Below, piece by piece: positions 4,404 through 54,032 of a stretch of DNA of 64,000 nt. The number at the start of each line of letters is the position of its first letter. Within the stretch, counting starts at the first letter, position 1. A program made the translations under genes and the position numbers. The notes beneath the pieces are model-generated. The model was not told where the DNA came from and ran no database searches. It worked only from the letters and a program-made list of their open reading frames with translations. Source of the stretch: Diplonema papillatum (lineage: Eukaryota; Euglenozoa; Diplonemea; Diplonemida; Diplonemidae); assembly GCA_030068145.1 (NCBI GenBank), contig JAPJBO010000041.1, forward strand, positions 62,001-126,000, written 5' to 3'.

Positions 4404-4940
4404 ATGTCGAGCCGAGCACCCAGCCGTGCATCGGCAGGCAGCCAGGCGCCGGCCGCCAGCCTGCCGGAGAACCCGGAACCGACGAATGACGCGAAGCCGC
4501 CCTCGTCTTCGGCCGACGACGAAATAGCCCCGGCGTCGCCGCACTTCGACATCTACAAGTACCGAGACGCGCAGCTTCTGGCAGTGGCCCAGGCCCAAGG
4601 GCTGCTCCCCGACGCCGACGAGTCGCAGTCCCTGCAGCCGGAGGCCACCCGGCAGTCGCTCGGAACGCACTTCGACGAAGAGCATTCGGCGCCCGCCAAG
4701 ACCGGCTTGGAGCTCCGCGTCCAAGAGCTGGAGATCGACAACTCCAACTTGCAGCTGCGGTTGGGAAGAAGGGAGAAGGAGTGCGACATCCTCCGCGATG
4801 AAACGGCGCTCATCAAAGCGAAGCACGCAGAGGTGCTCTCCGCCCTGGAGCTGGTCTCGGCGGAGAAAGAGAGGATTGAGCAACGGGCCGCCCGTTTCGG
4901 CCAAAGCGACGACGAACGGATCAACGCTCTGCTCTCGCAG
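4404..4940 (+). CDS. Coiled-coil/Tudor-like protein, first recognisable exon
   Basis: An unidentified protein. The open frame runs from before 4314; the first ATG is at 4404, but the sequence just upstream (CACGCACAG at about 4327) could be a splice acceptor, so an earlier exon is possible. The first part is Ser/Pro/Ala-rich and probably disordered. From about 4700 comes a charged heptad-rich stretch (GLELRVQELEIDNSNLQLRL, then KAKHAEVLSALELVSAEKER) typical of a coiled coil. The exon ends in CTCTCGCAG followed by the donor GTAAAC at 4941, phase 0. Joining it to the exon at 8293 keeps the frame (LLSQ then VVDLEAQLKKK) and continues the coiled coil, which supports the join. No enzymatic motif is visible. 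Confidence 0.75.
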
Positions 4941-10551: not shown

Positions 10552-10793
10552 CATACTATGCAGTCCGCCGCATTCCGCCCGACTTACACGGACTAAAAAT
10601 ACTCCCACACGGACTTACACGGAATCGGGGTGAGTCCGTCTGGGGTGCGGGTGGGGTGCGGGTGAACGTTTTCCAATGAAAATACTCAGTATCCTTAGTA
10701 TTGCTTCGTATTCTTAGTATTTCTATTCTTGCACATAACAGTCGTTGCGAACTTGGTCATTGCGGTTGCGGAGACCAGCAGCAAGAACACAGG
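10552..10793 (+). repeat. Left terminal inverted repeat of the hAT-like element
   Basis: Inverted partner of 14172-14421. Includes GGGTGCGGGTGGGGTGCGGG subterminal repeats at about 10635-10665, which are typical places for transposase binding; that role is inferred. Confidence 0.85.
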
Positions 10794-10825
10794 AAACAAA
10801 CACACAACTTCGAAGGGGGGGGGGG

Positions 10826-13222
10826 ATGGGAAGGCCTAAGGGCTCGAAAAACAAGGCGAAGGCCGGCAAGTCTGAACCGTCCAACAAGAAGAGAAGGGTG
10901 ACAATGAGCCAGGCCATGCAGGATGCGGAGTCCAGCAGCGAAGCACCGACTAGCGAAGCACCGAACAGTGAAGCACCGACCAGCGATTCCGAAGGTGGCT
11001 CGTCCGTCCCGATGTCGGTCTCGTCGGTTCTTGGTCCGCTCTTTGAGGCAGTCGAGGCAGCCTCACAGGCTGACGATGCAGGTTCACAGACAGAAGATGC
11101 AGGTTCACAGGCCGGCGGGTCAGCCTCACAGGCTGGTACGCCAGCCTCGCAGACAAAGGTGGTCAAAAGACCGTCTAAGCTGCAGCTCCGAAAGGGGCTG
11201 GCGAAGGGCGCAGCGAAGGTTGCAGTGGCCGGCAGCAAACGCCACAATCTGCTGATTACAGCCGTAAAAAGGATGAACAAGCTCACAGACGCAGAAAAGG
11301 AAGGCTTGGAGCTCAGGAAGGTGAAGGACCTCCCTTCATCTTGGAAGTCGTTAGCACTCAGAGACCCCAACGTCACGTTGCAGGAAGAAGTGATCTGGTG
11401 CGGTTCATGCCAAAAGAAAATCAACTACCTCGACAGCACCACGTGCAAGAAGCATCACACCTACGAAGAACACAAGAAGAGGCACACACTTCTGGTGGCA
11501 CAAAAAAAGGCTGGCGCGGTTGTTGTGGACGTTGACGCCGGTACCGCAAACGTCACTGAAAAGGGGACCGCCGTACAGGACTTCACGAGGTTGGTTGCGA
11601 TGGCCGGCATGAAGGCAGGGGCAGTGGCTTGCATGCGTGTCTTTTTCAGAAAGCATGTCTCCCCGGCAATTCCCCACACGAGGACGCTCATGGATATGAG
11701 TCGGGGGTGCGATGCGAAGACGCAGATGCAGAAGGATCTAATAGAGACGATCGGGACATCGTTTGGCATTGGGTTTGATGGATCCATCATCGACGAGCTC
11801 AAGGAGCAGGCATTGGCAGTGGTCGCATACGACAAGGGACGAGCATACTTGCTGGGACTTCGCGTTGGAGAGGACGGTGAAGCCTTGGACACAACCTCTC
11901 AGTCGGAGTTTGTTGCCAACGTCCTCAAGGACTACGGGATCAAGATACCCAACGTCGCTTACATCGTCGTTGACAAGGCGTCGACGAACGTGGTCGCCCT
12001 TCAGGACTGGGAGGGCATTGTGATATACTGCTTCGGTCACCATCTGAAAAATGCCATCAAGCCGTGGTTCAAGCTGAGTCACCCGAACGCCCACGACACA
12101 CTGCGTCTCTTCAGCAACGCTTTCTACAAAGCACCCACGCGTGAGGTTCGGTGGGTGCAGGCGCAGAAGGCAGTCGTGACCCATGATGTCGATGCAGCCG
12201 CTACAGAAGACGAGATTCCGATCGCCCAAAAGCTGACTGCCCTGCTGTCGTTGCACGAGGATGGCGAAGACGTCGAAGCTGACATCCTTGAGTGTCTTGG
12301 TGAAGGAGATGGAGACATGTTGGAGCGTGCAAAGGAGAGGTTGACGCAAGCTCAAAATGAGAACGTGCCAGTGGACTTGACACCAGAACCACAACGCGAG
12401 CAACGTCCCAGCCCGGAATACCCCCCCTCTATCAACGACACGAGGTGGGATTCCACCTTCAGATGCCTTGCCCACCTGGTCCCCCGCCTGCAGTCTCTTC
12501 CAGCATTTCTTGAGAAAGAACTGAAAAGGAACACCACACCCGAGAGTATCCAACTACTTGCGGGGAAGTTCAGCGATGCAGACGTCACAGAAACGTGTGC
12601 AGCTCTTGTAACGGCCTTGGAAGCCATGGAACCCGTCATGCCCCTTTTCAGTTTTGCTGCTGATCCACCCGCGCGCAAGCCCCTTGCAGCGGAACTCCCC
12701 GCCATGGTTGCAAAAGCCATGAAGGCCGTTGGCAACGATCTCTCCGCCGTCCTGAAAGAGATGTGGAGCACCTATCTTTCCCGGGACATCTTCAAATCCA
12801 TGTGGCTCTTTTGCCCTGAGAAGCTGGGTACGAAGAAGGCAGCGGGAATTGCCATCCCCTCAGTGGAGTCAATCACGGACACATTCAAGGGCGTGTTTCA
12901 CCGCGACGCCAAAACCCAACTGGGCGAGTACCTGAAGGTTTCGATCAGCGTCCTGACGAAATGGAAGGATGCCGAAGCATTCTGGACTTCGAAGAAGCAG
13001 GTATGGCCGGATCTCTCAGCCGTAGCTCTCACGCTGTTGTACCTGCCCGTCAGTGTAACGCGGGTGGACGCCGTGTTCAGCCAGTTGGGGGCAATCTCAA
13101 ATGAGAGAGGGGGGAGAATCAACCCTTCTGCATACGAGACGACAGCCCTTTACTACTGCAACAAAGACATCTCTGGGAGGTTCAAGGACTTCGACGACGA
13201 ACATTCGCTGTCTCGGGTGTGA
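10826..13222 (+). CDS. hAT-family transposase
   Basis: 798 codons from the ATG at 10826; the frame is open further upstream but lies in the terminal repeat, and MGRPKGSKNKAK is an AT-hook-like start. A low-complexity Ser/Thr/Ala stretch follows. Around residues 190-222 is a BED-like zinc finger pattern (WCGSC, then HHTYEEHKKRH). The RNase H-like core shows FDGS (about 316), VVDKASTN (about 382), CFGHHLKNAI and NDTRWDSTF (about 538). The C-terminus (about 730-785: LTLLYLPVSVTRVDAVFSQL, then NERGGRINPSAYE) matches the hAT dimerisation region. No frameshift or stop, so it may be active. It would excise and reinsert the surrounding element. Confidence 0.9.
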   Translation: MGRPKGSKNKAKAGKSEPSNKKRRVTMSQAMQDAESSSEAPTSEAPNSEAPTSDSEGGSSVPMSVSSVLGPLFEAVEAASQADDAGSQTEDAGSQAGGSASQAGTPASQTKVVKRPSKLQLRKGLAKGAAKVAVAGSKRHNLLITAVKRMNKLTDAEKEGLELRKVKDLPSSWKSLALRDPNVTLQEEVIWCGSCQKKINYLDSTTCKKHHTYEEHKKRHTLLVAQKKAGAVVVDVDAGTANVTEKGTAVQDFTRLVAMAGMKAGAVACMRVFFRKHVSPAIPHTRTLMDMSRGCDAKTQMQKDLIETIGTSFGIGFDGSIIDELKEQALAVVAYDKGRAYLLGLRVGEDGEALDTTSQSEFVANVLKDYGIKIPNVAYIVVDKASTNVVALQDWEGIVIYCFGHHLKNAIKPWFKLSHPNAHDTLRLFSNAFYKAPTREVRWVQAQKAVVTHDVDAAATEDEIPIAQKLTALLSLHEDGEDVEADILECLGEGDGDMLERAKERLTQAQNENVPVDLTPEPQREQRPSPEYPPSINDTRWDSTFRCLAHLVPRLQSLPAFLEKELKRNTTPESIQLLAGKFSDADVTETCAALVTALEAMEPVMPLFSFAADPPARKPLAAELPAMVAKAMKAVGNDLSAVLKEMWSTYLSRDIFKSMWLFCPEKLGTKKAAGIAIPSVESITDTFKGVFHRDAKTQLGEYLKVSISVLTKWKDAEAFWTSKKQVWPDLSAVALTLLYLPVSVTRVDAVFSQLGAISNERGGRINPSAYETTALYYCNKDISGRFKDFDDEHSLSRV

Positions 13223-24915: not shown

Positions 24916-25889
24916 TTGCACTCTGAAAAATAATAATGTGCAAGGGAGTATACGGCACGGCGTCAATCAGACGCCTAAAAGATGACCCTGTACCAGAAAG
25001 AATAATTCTGCAAAAACACGCAGGGAAAAGAACAGCTTGCTTCAGTAGGTAAGAAAGCAATGAGCCGAACCGGAAGGGTGTTCGACCCATATTTCCAGCG
25101 AAAGTGGCGACCTTGGCCTGGAAGCAAGTTGCACATCACCCACCAAACAGTAACCCCCCTACAAAAGAAACCCTTTACTGGCTTTTCGCCTCCTGCCTCT
25201 CGCCACCTTTGTGTTTTCTTTTTTATTTTGGCGTGGCCATTCTGCCCAAGTCTGCGTTTTTTTGTGTCTAACAAACGCAATTTGTCAAGAACAAAACAGA
25301 TCGATGGCAGCGTACTATCCTCACTCCCGTTAGATGAACAAAACAGGTTTGAAGGAAGTGCGCACAAACAAAGAGGTTGCCTGCCCCCCTCCTCGAGAAC
25401 AGCCCTGTTGTCAAAGACTGGGCGCGCTGTTGTTCGTGCGTGCCGGTTGATCAATTTTCCACGTGGTTTTTGCGAGGTTGGCGGTTTCTGATCAACGCTG
25501 CCAAGATGATTTACGGGGCCAGGATGGGCCCTGGACAGTTGGGCAGGCTTGGGCGTATAGCCACAGTAGTTTTTTTTTTCTTCTTCGTTTCCTCTCTCCC
25601 ACCCGCCTCTCCCTCTCTCTCTCTCTCACTTGTCCAGAATTGTGTGTTCAGACTGGCACGCAAAGGCGGCATTTCGACGCCGGTTTGACGGAACCCGAAA
25701 GCCAATCAACGCAACGAAAAAACAGGCAGCGCCCGCAGAATGTCGGTTGGTTCTGTGTTCCTCCCTTTTATTCTCTTCGGTTGCTCCGCTCAGGGCGGGA
25801 TAGTGATGGGACCTAGTGCAGAGAGAAATAGCCTCGACATGTACTTAGTACGTTAGAAGCAATGGATGATATCTAAACCTGTCAATGAA
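24916..25889. other. Spacer
   Basis: Pyrimidine tract (CTCTCT) at about 25605-25630. No recognised gene; frames of up to 159 codons look like chance. Confidence 0.45.
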
Positions 25890-25988
25890 CACAATTGATG
25901 GACAAGTCTGGTGCCAGCACCCGCGGTAATTCCAGCACCAATGGCGTAAATTAATGCTGCTGCTGTTAAAAAGCTCGGAGTTGGATCC
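25890..25988 (+). pseudogene. SSU (18S-like) rRNA fragment, 530-loop region
   Basis: The sequence from ACAATTGATGGACAAGTCTGG through TGGTGCCAGCACCCGCGG, TAATTCCAGCACCAATGGCG and TTAAAAAGCTCGGAGTTGGA follows the universally conserved 18S helix 18 region. The canonical GCAGCCGCGG reads GCACCCGCGG here, a change inside a normally invariant loop. Only about 100 nt are recognisable and flanks do not continue as rRNA, so this is a pseudogene fragment. Confidence 0.85.
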
Positions 25989-47492: not shown

Positions 47493-47750
47493 ATGGCGCC
47501 ACAGGGAGTCGCCGTAGGGGATCTGTCAGTGAACGAGCTGCAGACGTACATCAAGGTGCTCCGCGACGAGTTGCAGGTGCTGATGAACCAGTATGGTGCC
47601 CTGAAGACTGCCCGAGAGCGGTACCTCGACAGCAAGCAGACGCTCGAGAGTCTGGAGCAGTGCAAAGAGGGCGAGAAGATACTCATCCCCATCACGCACA
47701 GCCTGTTCGTCCGGGGAGAGCTGGGGGCTACGGACTCGGCCATCATAGAG
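47493..47750 (+). CDS. PFDN5: Prefoldin subunit 5, exon 1
   Basis: Encodes the first 86 residues of an alpha-class prefoldin subunit. Prefoldin is a cytosolic hexameric co-chaperone that passes unfolded actin and tubulin to the TRiC/CCT chaperonin. The ATG at 47493 is followed by NELQTYIKVLRDELQVLMNQ (N-terminal coiled-coil helix), RYLDSKQTLESLEQCKEGEK and ILIPITHSLFVRGEL, which match the conserved helix and beta-hairpin of PFDN5. The exon ends IIE in phase 0 before the donor GTATGC at 47751. The partner exon is at 52875, 5.1 kb away; together they give 148 residues, near the usual ~150. Confidence 0.93.
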
Positions 47751-47918
47751 GTATGCCGTTTTCATCCCAAGCCGAGTATGACACGAAGAACGGAAACTCT
47801 CCGAAGAGATGATCCCCGCACTGGTTCATCCCGCGTCGCCAGTCCTGCTTACCGGAAGTGGCCCACTTAGAACCAGGATTCTACATCAGGGTTCAATGAA
47901 GTAACCCCTCTGCCCACG

Positions 47919-48180
47919 CCCATTTAAAGTTTGAGAATAGGTCGAGGAAGCGATTTCCCCAGTGCCTCCAATCATTCGCTTTACCTGGCGTAACTCCGGG
48001 ACTGTTTTGGTTCTAGCTATCCTAAGGGAAAACTTCGGCGTGAACCAGCTACTAGATGGTTCGATGGGTCTTTCGCCCCTATACCCAGCTTTGACGAGCG
48101 ATTTGCACCGCGCTTTGAAGAGCAGTGGGAGCATAGGTCAACCACACACCAGGCATTTTGTTTTCCCCGAAGCCAGGGGT
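47919..48180 (-). pseudogene. LSU (28S-like) rRNA fragment, antisense
   Basis: Read on the + strand, CCCATTTAAAGTTTGAGAAT, AATCATTCGCTTTACC, CTAGCTATCCTAAGGGAAAA, ACCAGCTACTAGATGGTTCG and TCTTTCGCCCCTATACCCAG are the reverse complement of a conserved eukaryotic LSU rRNA segment; the match fades after about 48140-48180. About 260 nt with scattered substitutions; not a functional rRNA gene. It lies antisense within the PFDN5 intron. Confidence 0.9.
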
Positions 48181-48650
48181 ACCGGGGGATCACCCCACCG
48201 TAAGTTGCTATTCGGATTTCTTCATTCCTTTCCTCTGATTGAACGGAAACCCGCTGCTGCAATGCACATCAGCAATGCAATGCCTGACTGCAAGGTTCAA
48301 CTGCACCCCCAACATTGAGGATACCCGATTGAGCCGGACCATCCCCTCTTGATAGACCGTGATAGACCGCAGAATACAGCACCAGGCGATGCAGCTCTAG
48401 GGACTAGGGATGGACCTGATAGACCGTGGTGTATACCGTGATTCACGGATAAACAGCGGCGGATACTTCGATGCAGTTTCAAGAGATAGGGACGAACCGG
48501 CTCAACCCGATGAGAGGTTCCCCACCTACTCGTGTGTTTCGTCTCGTTCAGGCTGGTGGTCGGACTTGCGGGATTGCCTCTTTTCGCCGCTAGGGCCCGA
48601 TGCGCTCGTGCCCGTTTTCGCTGACTTTTCCCCCCCCAGGAAAACGAACC

Positions 48651-48736
48651 GTGATGATTTAACCGTGAATATTCGCAATGACAGCCCTCGAGGGTTGGAT
48701 GGAAAGAGCCCACGACAAACTACAACCAAGAACTGA
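48651..48736 (+). ncRNA. Box C/D snoRNA-like copy 1
   Basis: C box GTGATGA at 48651 and D box CTGA at 48733, 86 nt in total. Between them: GAATATTCGCAATGACA, an AGCCCTCGAGGGTT hairpin, GGATGGAAAGAGCCCACG and ACAAACTACAACCAAGAA next to the D box. The last stretch is the usual guide position. Target unknown. Confidence 0.85.
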
Positions 48737-48944
48737 GTAGCAAAACAGGTCAGAATGGGTGAGAGGTGGGATCACAAGGTTAATTGGTTCAGGGAGTTGT
48801 TTTTGCCCGGACTGAGCGTCTGTGCTCGTGATGCGTCATGTTTTCGCTGCCTTCTGCTAATCATCTTGTTCCGACCCTTCCTGTTAGCCGCCCGTCTGAC
48901 TTCCTCTCCTTGCCAGGTTCATCGATCTTCGCAGAGTTTCTACC

Positions 48945-49030
48945 GTGATGATTTATCCGTGAATATTCGCAATGACAGCCCTCGAGGGTTGGATGGAAAG
49001 AGCCCACGACAAACTACAACCAAGAACTGA
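48945..49030 (+). ncRNA. Box C/D snoRNA-like copy 2
   Basis: 86 nt, hairpin AGCCCTCGAGGGTT. Flanks CTAC (before the C box, one C apart) and GTAG (after the D box) can pair as a terminal stem. Confidence 0.87.
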
Positions 49031-49236
49031 GTAGCAAAACAGGTCAGAATGGGTGAGAAGTGGGATCACAAGGTTAATTGGTTCGGGAGTTGTTTTGCCC
49101 GGACTGAGCGTCTGTGCTCGTGATGCGTCATGTTTTCGCTGCCTTCTGCTAATCATCTTGTTCCGGCCCTTCCTGTTAGCCGCCCGTCTGACTTCCTCTC
49201 CTTGCCAGGTTCATCGATCTTCGCAGAGTTTCTACC

Positions 49237-49322
49237 GTGATGATTTATCCGTGAATATTCGCAATGACAGCCCTCGAGGGTTGCATGGAAAGAGCCCACG
49301 ACAAACTACAACCAAGAACTGA
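49237..49322 (+). ncRNA. Box C/D snoRNA-like copy 3
   Basis: 86 nt; same subfamily and CTAC/GTAG terminal stem as copy 2, with GCATGG for GGATGG in the C'-like position. Confidence 0.87.
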
Positions 49323-49523
49323 GTAGTAAAGCATGGTGAGAAGTGGGATCACGAGGTTAATTGGGAAGTTGTATAGCCCGGACTGGACTGAGCGTCTGTG
49401 CTCATGATGCATCGTGTTTTTGCTTCCTTCTGCCAGTCTTATCATCTTGTTCCGGCCCTTCCGGTTAGCCGCCCGTCTGGCTTCCTCGTGGCCAGGTTCG
49501 TCAAATTTCGCAGAGTTTCTACC

Positions 49524-49590
49524 GTGATGATTCTAACGTGAAAACTCGCAATGACAGCCCTCGAGGGTTGGATGGAAAGAGCTCACGACG
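49524..49590 (+). pseudogene. Box C/D snoRNA-like copy 4, truncated
   Basis: C box GTGATGA and hairpin kept, but AAAACTCGC replaces AATATTCGC and the 3' half with guide and D box is missing after GCTCACGACG. Probably dead. Confidence 0.8.
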
Positions 49591-49768
49591 AGTGGGATCA
49601 CCAGGTTAAATGGGTTAGAAGTTGTACAGCCCGGACTGAGCGTCTGTGCTCGTGATGCGTCATGTTTTTGCTTCCTTCTGCTAATCATCTTGTTCCGGCC
49701 CTGCTGGTTAGCCGCCCGTCTGACTTCCTCTCCTGGCCAGGTTCATCGATCTTCGCAAGGTTTCTACC

Positions 49769-49854
49769 GTGATGATTTATCCGTGAATATTCGCAATGAC
49801 AGCCCTCGAGGGTTGCATGGAAAGAGCCCACGACAAACTACAACCAAGAACTGA
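49769..49854 (+). ncRNA. Box C/D snoRNA-like copy 5
   Basis: 86 nt, intact C and D boxes, hairpin AGCCCTCGAGGGTT, followed by CTAG rather than GTAG, so the terminal stem is weak. Confidence 0.82.
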
Positions 49855-50148
49855 CTAGCAAAACAGGTCAGAATGGGTGAGAAGTGGGATCACGAGGTTA
49901 ATTGGATCAGGGAAGTTGTATAGCCCGGACTGGGCGTCTGTGTGCTCATGATGCATCGTGGGTTTGCTTCCTTCTGCCCGTCTTATCATCTTGTTCCGGC
50001 CCTTCCGGTTAGCCGCCCGTCTGGCTTCCTCGTGGCCAGGTTCGTCAATTTTCGCAGTGATTCAAAGCACAGACACGAAGATCGCTCAAAGCATTCGCAA
50101 AATAACACGAAAAGCCTCTAGGCAAAACCCCGTTTTCACATTTCTACC

Positions 50149-50234
50149 GTGATGATTCTAACGTGAATATTCGCAATGACAGCCCTGGAGGGTTGAATGG
50201 AAAGAGCCCACGACGAACTACAACCAAGAACTGA
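50149..50234 (+). ncRNA. Box C/D snoRNA-like copy 6
   Basis: 86 nt; loop change gives AGCCCTGGAGGGTT, and CGACGAACTACAACC before the D box has one change in the guide. CTAC/GTAG terminal stem. An ~80-bp insertion (50060-50140) upstream resembles 46040-46120. Confidence 0.83.
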
Positions 50235-50450
50235 GTAGCAAAACAAGAGTTGAGAGGGGGTCAGATGGGTTAGCAGTTGGATCACAAGGTCACACGGTAC
50301 TAGAAGTTGCATAGCCCGGCCTCTTGCATCGTGTTTTCACTTCCTTTTCTGCTCGTCTTCTCAATCCCTCCGGTTAGCCGCCCACGTCTGACTTCTTCTC
50401 TTGGCCGCTTTGAGCTGTGTCCTCGCGTCAAGGTTCAGAGAAGTGCCACC

Positions 50451-50536
50451 GTGATGATTTAAACGTGAATATTCGCAATGACAGCCTTCGAAGACTGGAT
50501 GGAAAGAGCCCACGACAAACTACAACCAAGAACTGA
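50451..50536 (+). ncRNA. Box C/D snoRNA-like copy 7
   Basis: 86 nt; hairpin AGCCTTCGAAGACT. Flanks TGCCAC and GTTGCA can pair at five of six positions. Confidence 0.84.
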
Positions 50537-50709
50537 GTTGCAAAACAAGCCGTCGAGGGTCAGATGTTCGCCTCTTGCATCGTGTTTCACTTCCTTTTGC
50601 TCGTCGTAACACTACGTTCCGACTCCGGATAGCCGACCGCGTCTGGCATCCTTTCGTGGCCGTTTTGAGCTGTGAAGTATTGAGTCCTTGCGTCTTGGTT
50701 TATGCCACA

Positions 50710-50795
50710 GTGATGATTTAAACGTGAATATTCGCAATGACAGCCTTTGAAGGCTGGATGGAAAGAGCCCACGACAAACTACAACCAAGAACTGA
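50710..50795 (+). ncRNA. Box C/D snoRNA-like copy 8
   Basis: 86 nt; hairpin AGCCTTTGAAGGCT, a perfect stem that differs from copy 1 by a paired C-G to T-A change and a G-T to G-C change. Confidence 0.86.
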
Positions 50796-50988
50796 GTAGC
50801 AGTACAAAAGTTGATGGCCCGGGCTGCGCTCGCATCGGTGCTCGTGATCCATCGTGTTTTCACCTCTTTCTGCTCGTCTTTGTCGTCACGTTCGGACCTC
50901 TCCGATCAGTCGCCCGTGTCTGCTCTTGGCCGCTTCGACCTGATTGAGTCCTCGCGTTTAGTTTCATCGATCTTCGAGGAGGCGCACA

Positions 50989-51074
50989 GTGATGATTTAA
51001 ACGTGAATATTCGCAATGACATCCGTTCGAGGTTGGATGGAAAGAGCCCACGACAAACTACAACCAAGAACTGA
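50989..51074 (+). ncRNA. Box C/D snoRNA-like copy 9
   Basis: 86 nt; third subfamily with ATCCGTTCGAGGTT in the hairpin position, where pairing is poorer. C and D boxes and guide intact. Confidence 0.82.
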
Positions 51075-51297
51075 ATTGCAAAACAAGCCGTCGAGGGTCA
51101 GATGGGTGAGCAGTTGGATCACAAAGTAGTTGTGCTGGAAGCTGTATATCCCGGGCTGCGTTCGCCTCTTGCATCGTGTTTCACATCCTTTTGCTCGTCG
51201 TATCACTACGTTCCGACTCCGGATAGCCGACCGCGTCTGGCATCCTCTCTCGTGGCCGTTTTGAGCTGTGAAGTATTGAGTCCTTGCATATATGCCA

Positions 51298-51383
51298 GTG
51301 ATGATTTAAACGTGAATATTCGCAATGACAGCCTTTCAAGGCTAGATGGAAAGAGCCCACGACAAACTACAACCAAGAACTGA
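51298..51383 (+). ncRNA. Box C/D snoRNA-like copy 10
   Basis: 86 nt; hairpin AGCCTTTCAAGGCT (perfect stem, TC loop), then AGATGG. Confidence 0.85.
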
Positions 51384-51582
51384 GTAGCAGTACAAGAGTT
51401 GATGGCCCGGGCTGTGATCGCATCGGTGCTCGTGATCCATCGTGTTTTCACCTCTTTCTGCTCGTCTTTGTCGTCACGTTCGGACTCCTCCGATTACTCG
51501 CCCGTGGCTGCTCTTGGCCGCTTCGACCTGGTAGCTATTGAGTCCTCGCGTTTAGTTTTATCGATCTTCGAGTAGGCGCACT

Positions 51583-51668
51583 GTGATGATTTAAACGTGA
51601 ATATTCGCAATGACATCCCTTTGAGGTTGGATGGAAAGAGCCCACGACAAACTACAACCAAGAACTGA
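51583..51668 (+). ncRNA. Box C/D snoRNA-like copy 11
   Basis: 86 nt; ATCCCTTTGAGGTT subfamily like copy 9. Confidence 0.82.
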
Positions 51669-51736
51669 GTGTCAAAACAAGAGTTGAGGACGTTTGGTAC
51701 GGATTTGGATAGCAATGGGAAGTTAGCTAGCCGACC

Positions 51737-51822
51737 GTGATGATTTAAACGTGAATATTCGCAATGACAGCCTTTGAAGGCTGGATGGAAAGAGCCCACG
51801 ACAAACTACAACCAAGAACTGA
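51737..51822 (+). ncRNA. Box C/D snoRNA-like copy 12
   Basis: 86 nt; hairpin AGCCTTTGAAGGCT as in copy 8. Only 68 nt separate it from the D box of copy 11, the shortest spacer. Confidence 0.85.
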
Positions 51823-52003
51823 GTAGCAGTACAAGAGTTGATGGCCCGGGCTGCGCTCGCGTCGGTGCTCGTGATGCATCGTGTTCACCTCTTTCTCGCC
51901 CGTCTTTGTCGTCGCGTTCGGGCCCCTCCGATTCGTCGCCCGCGTCTGCCCTTCGACCTGGTAACTATTGAGTCCTCGCGTTTAGTTTCATCGAAGGCGC
52001 ACC

Positions 52004-52089
52004 GTGATGATTTAAACGTGAATATTCGCAATGACATCCCTTCGGGGTTGGATGGAAAGAGCCCACGACAAACTACAACCAAGAACTGA
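52004..52089 (+). ncRNA. Box C/D snoRNA-like copy 13
   Basis: 86 nt; ATCCCTTCGGGGTT places a TTCG loop on a CCC/GGG stem. Confidence 0.84.
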
Positions 52090-52216
52090 GTGTCAAAACA
52101 AGAGCTGAGGCGGCGTTGGGTTAGATGAATTAGAAATGGGGTAGGAGTTTGTATCGTCCGAGTCTTGCTGGTAACCAACGGGCCGTCACGTCTAGTTTCA
52201 TCGAGGAAGCGCCACC

Positions 52217-52302
52217 GTGATGATTTAAACGTGAATATTCGCAATGACAGCCCTTGACGGTTGGATGGAAAGAGCCCACGACAAACTACAACCAAGAACT
52301 GA
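52217..52302 (+). ncRNA. Box C/D snoRNA-like copy 14
   Basis: 86 nt; AGCCCTTGACGGTT leaves one C-C mismatch in the stem. C, D and guide intact. Confidence 0.83.
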
Positions 52303-52494
52303 GTATGATGAGAAGATTGGCTAACGCTAACTAATTGTCATCGCTGGTCTAACTCTCATTTGAATGTCACTTCGTTTTGGGTGTCAGCCCTCTGGTAGCC
52401 TCTACGAAAGGCCCGCTGCAGGAGCGGAAGGTGTTTGCGGTGTAGTCGCTTCGCTGGGAAGTGTCCTCTGTTCAGGCCTGTGAGGAAGCGACCC

Positions 52495-52570
52495 GTGATG
52501 ATTTAAACGTGAATATTCGCAATGACAAGCCGTCGGGTTGGATGCAAAGAGCACCACGACAACCAATCTC
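52495..52570 (+). pseudogene. Box C/D snoRNA-like copy 15, degenerate
   Basis: C box and GAATATTCGCAATGACA kept, hairpin shortened (AGCCGTCGGGTTGG), extra bases in GAGCACCACGAC, and no D box after ACAACCAATC. Confidence 0.8.
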
Positions 52571-52684
52571 TTCTCATTGTGCTAGGTTCGGGGGTACGGT
52601 TTCGTACCCTACTTCGGGAGCTGTACACTCCCTTTCCCATTTTTGCATTCCTTTTCTATACAACATCTTCTGCTTAACAAGTGC

Positions 52685-52779
52685 ATGCTAATCCATGTGG
52701 TTCATGTACTTAAAAGAACTCAATGCTAACACCAATCATGCGTGGGAGGCAGTGTTCTGTCTAAACATTATACTAAGAC
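52685..52779 (+). repeat. R5 and R4 repeat pair inside the PFDN5 intron
   Basis: R5 (GCTAATCCATGTGGTTCATG to AACTCAATGCTAA) directly followed by R4 (CATGCGTGGGAGGCAGTG, CTAAACATTATACTAAG). Confidence 0.8.
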
Positions 52780-52874
52780 TTTTCCCCCGTGGAACCCTAA
52801 TGCCAAGTTCGGCGTGTGTGATGCCAAGTTCTGGATCCGTAGGGCATGGTAGAACACTCAAACTCACCACACAG

Positions 52875-53063
52875 ATGGGCGCCGGATACTACGTGAAAAT
52901 GAGCACGACGAAGGGCAAGGACTTCATGATGCGCAAGACGAAAGGCCTGACGAACATGATGCAGGAGATTGAAAAGAACGTCCACCTCAAGCAGCAGCAG
53001 CTCCAGATCATGGAGGAGACGTTCCAGCAGAAGGCGCGGACCGCTGGCCCCCCCCCGGCGTGA
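52875..53063 (+). CDS. PFDN5: Prefoldin subunit 5, exon 2
   Basis: Begins after CACCACACAG and encodes MGAGYYVKMSTTKGKDFMMR, then KTKGLTNMMQEIEKNVHLKQ and QQLQIMEETFQQK before a TGA at 53061. GxGYYV, opening the second half, and the C-terminal coiled-coil helix are the conserved second half of PFDN5. It joins exon 1 in phase 0 (DSAIIE then MGAGYYV). The tail ARTAGPPPA is short. Confidence 0.92.
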   Translation: MGAGYYVKMSTTKGKDFMMRKTKGLTNMMQEIEKNVHLKQQQLQIMEETFQQKARTAGPPPA

Positions 53064-53815: not shown

Positions 53816-54032
53816 TGTACACGTGATGATCGACCGAACGACCCTGTGGCTCCCCTAGGTAAAAAAACCGTACCAGTCTTCACTGAAAAAGGGGGGGCCA
53901 AGACTACATTTTGGTGAAGTTTGGTCTTGATTTGGCCCCATTAGACACAGCCTTCGGCTAGCCGAGAGATGGTGATGAGATGACAGTGTCCGCAACGATC
54001 GCTCCCATCACCACCCGCTACCCAGCCTCAAT

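Follow-up and report, generated by a model that had tools for sequence, protein, structure and literature searches.

A tandem array of a probable U24-like box C/D snoRNA in an intron of the Diplonema papillatum prefoldin subunit 5 gene

We analysed a window of 64,000 nucleotides (nt) from the 271-Mb genome of the diplonemid Diplonema papillatum (Euglenozoa; contig C41, positions 62001-126000), in which an intron of the gene for prefoldin subunit 5 (PFDN5) carries a tandem array of small nucleolar RNA (snoRNA) units. The array very probably comprises 15 copies, 13 of them intact, of a single canonical box C/D snoRNA that would serve as a U24-like double guide for 2'-O-methylation of 28S ribosomal RNA (rRNA). 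The features that can be read from the sequence are boxes C and D, a likely box D', a hairpin, two antisense elements against 28S rRNA, a sense intronic location and the amplification of three other guide types in the same genome. Note that positions are those of the window, unless another contig is named.

The box C motif GTGATGATT (GTGATGA) starts each of the 15 units, all of which lie on the forward strand. Full units with boxes C and D were found at 48651-48736 (unit 1), 48945-49030 (unit 2), 49237-49322 (unit 3), 49769-49854 (unit 5), 50149-50234 (unit 6), 50451-50536 (unit 7), 50710-50795 (unit 8), 50989-51074 (unit 9), 51298-51383 (unit 10), 51583-51668 (unit 11), 51737-51822 (unit 12), 52004-52089 (unit 13) and 52217-52302 (unit 14). 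Unit 4 (49524-49591) is truncated, retaining box C and having lost the D guide and box D, and unit 15 (52495-52562) is degenerate, with box C, the same two losses and indels. CTGA starts at offset 82 in 13 of the 15 copies, giving a unit of 86 nt with CTGA included, and start-to-start gaps of 154-380 nt leave spacers of 68-294 nt; the regular distance between the boxes and the variable spacers described in a first-pass annotation of this DNA were thus both found on measurement. Elsewhere in the window, GTGATGA occurs only twice more on the forward strand and seven times on the reverse strand. The 33-nt 5' part of the unit (at most 3 mismatches) had 14 matches genome-wide, every one in the PFDN5 array, and the 19-nt 3' part (at most 2 mismatches) had 13 exact matches, again all in this array; outside it, the 19-nt part gave four two-mismatch matches as compared with seven for a reversed control. 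Elsewhere in the assembly, the 5' and 3' parts of the unit are therefore not above control level.

The array sits in sense within a 5.1-kb intron. When exon 1 (coding part, 47493-47750, forward strand; donor GAG/GTATGC; Pfam Prefoldin) and exon 2 (52875-53063, forward strand, stop codon included) were joined, they encoded a 148-amino-acid protein with 100% identity and 100% coverage to the NCBI entry 'putative prefoldin subunit 5 [Diplonema papillatum]'. Because this identity spans the junction, the intron is bounded at 47751-52874 (forward strand), and the array lies inside PFDN5, where the first-pass annotation had placed it. The intron is of GT-AG type and phase 0, and D. papillatum introns are described as mostly GT-AG (PMC10161547).

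We took unit 12 as the example for the positions of the elements, which are given here with unit positions in brackets. Box C at 51737-51743 (1-7) is present in 15/15 copies, and is followed by an 11-nt D' guide at 51752-51762 (16-26) and by a putative box D', ATGA, at 51764-51767 (28-31), which is suggested by its position and invariance; ATGA likewise follows the D' guide of the U77/80-type unit described below. A hairpin at 51768-51783 (32-47) precedes a putative degenerate box C' at 51785-51791 (49-55), for which invariance and a probable kink-turn geometry argue. The 13-nt D guide lies at 51805-51817 (69-81) and box D, CTGA, at 51819-51822 (83-86), all on the forward strand. With boxes C and D in place and the two rRNA guides predicted from sequence, the earlier identification of a tandem 15-copy array of a box C/D snoRNA is supported.

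To identify the target, the organism's own ribosomal DNA (rDNA) was located on contig C217, and the large-subunit (LSU) rRNA was numbered from its Rfam start. The D guide is perfectly complementary to LSU 1503-1515 and the D' guide to LSU 1517-1527, each guide ending one base short of its box. The two target stretches are separated by one base, and the site of the D guide lies 5' of that of the D' guide in the same LSU stretch, where the local 28S sequence is AGATCTTGGTTGTAGTAGCGAATATTCA. The first-pass annotation had proposed comparing the complements of both conserved segments with the organism's rRNA, and this comparison was positive for both, at adjacent 28S sites. With duplex energies of -20.5 and -15.7 kcal/mol, neither guide pairs better anywhere else in the rDNA unit than at this LSU site. 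Only one other run of at least 9 nt exists in the rDNA; it is 10 nt long, involves the hairpin of the unit and lies, on the rDNA side, before the LSU start. Two runs of at least 11 nt within 40 nt of the rDNA unit occurred in none of 20,000 dinucleotide shuffles of the unit; two of at least 10 nt within 40 nt occurred in 12 shuffles, and a run of at least 13 nt in 150. A test with 1000 shuffles gave a run of at least 13 nt in 5, two runs of at least 9 nt within 60 nt in 17 and two runs of at least 7 nt in 984, indicating that short complementary runs are meaningless. The longest rDNA complement in the 14 spacers was 9-12 nt. An 18S helix near UUCUUAGUUGG (the human Um1442 region) was considered as the target of the D guide and rejected; the small-subunit (SSU) rRNA of this organism reads CTCCTGGTTGG, and no run of at least 9 nt was found there.

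Yeast U24 marks C1437 through its D guide and both A1449 and G1450 through its D' guide, with equivalents in Arabidopsis, where six snoRNAs, U24 among them, are described as having two elements that target sites 11-18 nt apart (PMC8053127). The AGATCTTGGTTGTAGTAGCGAATATTCA stretch is the 28S site bound by U24.

It has to be considered that the complementarity may reflect descent, the unit being derived from an antisense piece of 28S rRNA, and not guide function. The genome holds thousands of 28S pieces (about 3600 scattered ones; PMC10161547), one of which lies antisense in the same PFDN5 intron (47822-48031, reverse strand; Rfam RF02543, 153 bits). Furthermore, the two antisense elements are ordered as they would be in such a piece, and one of our guide searches did match tandem antisense 28S pieces (contig C95, see below). 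However, between the two elements the unit has 42 bases of its own, with D', hairpin and C', where 28S has a single base, and boxes C, D' and D are placed as the register of a guide requires. The intronic 28S piece neither contains the guide target nor has a complement of the snoRNA unit of at least 11 nt, and the D and D' guides of yeast and plant U24 pair with the same stretch (PMC8053127). We consequently regard descent as an exceedingly improbable explanation of the pairing, and a guide function as the preferred one.

We next compared the copies with one another, leaving out copies 4 and 15. In the 13 full copies, 71 of the 86 positions are invariant, and the 15 variable positions all fall within 10-13, 34-48 and 67. 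The boxes and guides are contained in two nearly invariant blocks. The mean pairwise distance was 0.064 for the units and 0.349 for the spacers (aligned spacer columns, gaps ignored), and the unit was the closer of the two in 77 of 78 pairs, so that the sequence between the boxes is indeed kept better than the spacers, as had been noticed at first sight. These values bear on the possibility that the array is a satellite, a common tandem repeat that happens to lie next to a gene and yields no functional RNA. Gene-adjacent repeats are reported to be common in this genome (PMC10161547), and the spacers also share blocks, indicating that whole segments were duplicated. On the other hand, the units diverge far less than the spacers, the 13 units contain no indel, their variation is mainly in the linker and hairpin, two adjacent 28S complements stand beside the boxes, and tandem units of three other guide types also carry boxes and rRNA guides. 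A satellite is therefore highly improbable.

The hairpin at positions 32-47 comprises 6 bp and varies in sequence among copies, with 89.7% of cells paired; between copies, one pair changes from C-G to U-A and another from G-U to G-C. For the whole structure, 83.8% of cells are paired, as compared with 79.3% in shuffles (3/500 as high) and 19-45% when the structure was slid along the sequence. In the terminal stem beside boxes C and D, the inner two pairs form in 11/13 and 12/13 copies and the outer two in 6/13 and 10/13.

Several observations weigh against a box C/D guide of the U24 kind. Pairs changed on both sides number three, and this number was reached by 268/500 shuffles, so that the structural support for the unit is moderate. 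The outer stem is weak, with pair 5-97 forming in 6/13 copies, single units fold no better than shuffles (5 folds, z -1.48 to 0.33), and no structural excess pointing to cleavage sites was seen in the 14 spacers (z -0.43 to 2.06). No Rfam snoRNA family matched the window at gathering score; the weak matches to one unit were snoR64 (18.6 bits, gathering score 45), SNORD14 (14.6 bits, gathering score 64) and two others, and SNORD24 was absent among the 4 matches up to E 10 in a stretch with unit 2 and the 2 matches up to E 5 in 7 kb. Finally, the near-invariant positions 49-68 (20 bases, from C' to the D guide) pair with rDNA no better than shuffles do (24/40 as good), although the shuffles were favoured in this test, being scanned with 80-nt target windows as compared with 60-nt windows for the real segment. 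Part of the constraint on the unit thus lacks an explanation.

These 20 bases without an rDNA partner better than chance, together with the high copy number, would suit a snoRNA-like RNA whose role lies outside rRNA, as has been supposed for SNORD115/116, or else a pre-rRNA processing factor that is not a methylation guide. Abundant snoRNAs of Trypanosoma brucei act in rRNA processing (PMC6411936). Against such a role, the two guides match mature 28S with the register that a guide should have, and arrays are formed in this genome by three of the six other rRNA guide types that we searched; since ordinary guides are also amplified, a high copy number does not point to anything unusual in the role of the RNA. 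We consider a role of this kind improbable. As far as can be judged from the two antisense elements, the RNA would act in the manner of U24, as a double guide for rRNA, because U24 binds the same 28S stretch. The first-pass annotation had offered either a high dosage of one guide or a non-rRNA role. Many doses of one rRNA guide are favoured, dosage being a presumed effect, while the non-rRNA role is needless given the 28S complements.

The six further conserved guide types were searched with one pattern each, built from this organism's rRNA sequence with CTGA after it, and with 1 mismatch allowed. Homogeneous tandem arrays were found for three of them, the U27-, U38- and U77/80-types. The U27-type pattern had 38 matches (1 in the reversed control), with 15 units on C276, 13 on C330 and 2 on C1550, and box C, guide and box D were all present in 13/15, 10/13 and 2/2 of these units, respectively. 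The U38-type pattern had 48 matches (3 in the control), with 13 units on C225, 17 on C1245, 4 on C851 and 3 on C607; all three elements were present in 11/13, 14/17, 3/4 and 3/3 units, and the array copies carry one G-U pair. For the U77/80-type, there were 22 matches (0 in the control), 17 of them on C137. Four units were read there, and box C, guide and box D were present in three; the stretch that was read ends within the fourth. Because these three types also form arrays, the arrangement is not special to the U24-like guide or to PFDN5.

In the U77/80-type unit (C137:341801-342400), a second 12-nt rDNA antisense element overlaps the D' target (rDNA 4679-4690 and 4687-4699), and both elements of the unit may contact a single LSU site. 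At C330:217881 (reverse strand), a U27-type guide stands alone in a different body; it is preceded by ATGATGA and followed by CTGA, and is possibly a diverged isoform. Single-copy matches of the U27 and U38 patterns occur on further contigs, including C178 and C4.

No array was found for the U18-, U33- and U43-types with the single pattern used for each, which other box letters or registers could escape. The U18-type matches (3, with 0 in the control) were rejected as snoRNAs, since C95 carries tandem antisense 28S and on C82 the preceding 60 nt lack a box C. At C95:338818-339090, the antisense 28S piece is repeated at a spacing of 125-137 and mimics a U18-type guide. Of the U33-type matches (20, with 9 in the control), those on C245 were also rejected; this cluster, the one inspected (227601-228000), is a 255-nt repeat that looks coding by eye (Pro/Ala/Thr-rich) and mimics a U33-type guide. 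The U43-type pattern gave 10 matches and 10 in the reversed control, and was counted as not found.

Host genes were looked for at eight of the nine arrays, namely those in PFDN5 and on C276, C330, C225, C1245, C851, C607 and C137. A sense-intronic location was demonstrated for three of the nine (in PFDN5, a cytidylate-kinase-like gene and a dynein heavy chain gene) and is probable for one. The C276 array is flanked by cytidylate-kinase-like exons, and the alignment of their joined product with a kinetoplastid protein shows no gap where the exons meet. The coding sequence of the dynein stalk domain is interrupted by the C851 array, with profile positions 3-188 matched by the exon upstream and 193-338 by the exon downstream. 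The C225 array has CFAP69 ARM repeats upstream and a plausible next exon downstream; this second CFAP69 exon had no Pfam domain above the cut-off, and for lack of a credible match there the array is only probably intronic. No host gene was recognised in the flanks read of the C330, C1245, C607 and C137 arrays, and Pfam searches with one open frame each of C1245 and C607 returned no domain.

We then asked which bases the U24-like guide would mark. Under the D+5 rule, with box D at 83-86 and ATGA at 28-31 as D', the predicted marks are LSU U1506 (D+5) and A1520 (D'+5). The yeast offsets 0, +12 and +13 land on C, A and G of the Diplonema 28S motif, on which the yeast numbers are presumed to lie. 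The yeast-equivalent bases, presumably C1504, A1516 and G1517, are not the D+5 and D'+5 bases, and U1506 lies at +2 from C1504, the equivalent of C1437. Since the marked base is among the features that define U24, we call the RNA U24-like and not U24. In the other guide types, the D'+5 bases are SSU A28 (U27-type) and LSU A1199 (U38-type), both with CTGA as D', and LSU A942 (U77/80-type, with ATGA as D'), which we take to be the bases marked by yeast and human guides. Because ATGA as D' puts the D'+5 base of the U77/80-type on A942, and the U27- and U38-types fall on A28 and A1199, the predicted two-base shift of the U24-like guide register looks real.

The alternative is that the RNA is a true U24 orthologue which marks C1504, A1516 and G1517, and that its boxes or register are misread here. 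We consider this unlikely, but worth keeping in view. In each of the 13 full units, no CTGA comes between box C and the one at 83-86, and the latter puts D+5 on U1506; A1516 is left unpaired where the two duplexes adjoin; and ATGA as D' yields the register that we presume for the U77/80-type unit. An orthologue would nevertheless be in line with the shared 28S stretch, the same order of both elements and the retention of the three yeast-marked letters in Diplonema 28S, and D' registers are lax, yeast U24 marking two bases with one D' guide (PMC8053127).

If the array encodes a U24-like guide with the shifted register, its units would be cut from the PFDN5 pre-mRNA or from the intron after excision, would form particles with fibrillarin, Nop56/58 and the 15.5K protein, and would direct methylation of U1506 and A1520. 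Animal introns as a rule hold a single snoRNA, and where an intron has two, long RNAs with snoRNA ends can result (PMC11028025), so that a string of small nucleolar ribonucleoproteins (snoRNPs) is a possible alternative product. Release of all units would need an endonuclease that cuts between them, because exonucleases alone stop at the outermost units of the intron. Copy number may be maintained by unequal exchange and gene conversion, with the copies being homogenised, and could plausibly be of benefit by supplying dosage.

U24 (SNORD24; snR24 in yeast) is intron-encoded in yeast and mammals and, like the Diplonema RNA, pairs with neighbouring parts of one LSU site through antisense elements that precede D and D'; the latter differs in its predicted marks, its host PFDN5 and the lack of an Rfam SNORD24 match. 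The snoRNA clusters of Chlamydomonas and plants mix different guides, and those of kinetoplastids are not known to be intronic and mix C/D and H/ACA RNAs, whereas each Diplonema array inspected carries a single guide, and in Diplonema the arrays are homogeneous and introns of protein genes serve as hosts. Several snoRNAs per precursor and multi-copy families are shared with the intronic and polycistronic clusters of Chlamydomonas and plants (PMC7671301), as are clustered guide genes with the nearest relatives, kinetoplastids and Euglena, the Euglena ones being multi-copy and linked (PMC2784804). SNORD115 and SNORD116 of mammals also form large tandem arrays of related intronic C/D snoRNAs; there, however, consecutive SNHG14 introns give one copy each and the targets are unknown (PMC11608373), whereas in Diplonema 15 copies share one protein-gene intron and both guides fit 28S. 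U24 itself is described with two variants in Arabidopsis (PMC8053127), as compared with these 15 tandem copies.

We tentatively propose, as one joint claim whose chances we put somewhat below even, that diplonemid modification-guide snoRNAs as a class are organised as one-guide tandem arrays, in sense, in introns of protein genes that are unrelated to one another, in contrast to kinetoplastids and euglenids with their mixed clusters; that these introns are either cut between units by an endonuclease or last as snoRNP strings; and that the U24-like guide has slid by two bases, so that other nucleotides of the same 28S stretch are marked. For diplonemids, which are the sister group of Kinetoplastida and rank among the marine protists richest in species (PMC10161547), this analysis provides candidate guide snoRNAs with targets. 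The main text of the first diplonemid nuclear genome paper has 0 words starting with 'sno' (PMC10161547), and a literature search by title found no paper on diplonemid snoRNAs; among the titles listed, work on tandem snoRNA arrays mostly concerns Prader-Willi syndrome or imprinted loci. Fifteen copies in one intron depart from the one-snoRNA-per-intron habit of animals (PMC11028025). The snoRNP yield per intron, the reason why a housekeeping guide needs such a dosage and the possible sliding of U24 marks along a conserved site become testable, in a species that is amenable to genetic manipulation (PMC12621601).

Some further features of the window were observed. An SSU rRNA gene piece outside the rDNA lies at 25828-25941 (forward strand), and, at up to 1 mismatch, the genome contains 313 copies of a 27-nt SSU word, those in the rDNA counted in. 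A weak Rfam match to the trypanosome snoRNA snoTBR7, 3' of PFDN5 at 53820-53884 (forward strand; 18 bits, gathering score 45, E 5), is probably due to chance. At 10739-13222 (forward strand), an 827-amino-acid open frame without a Pfam match at E 0.001 appears transposase-like by eye.

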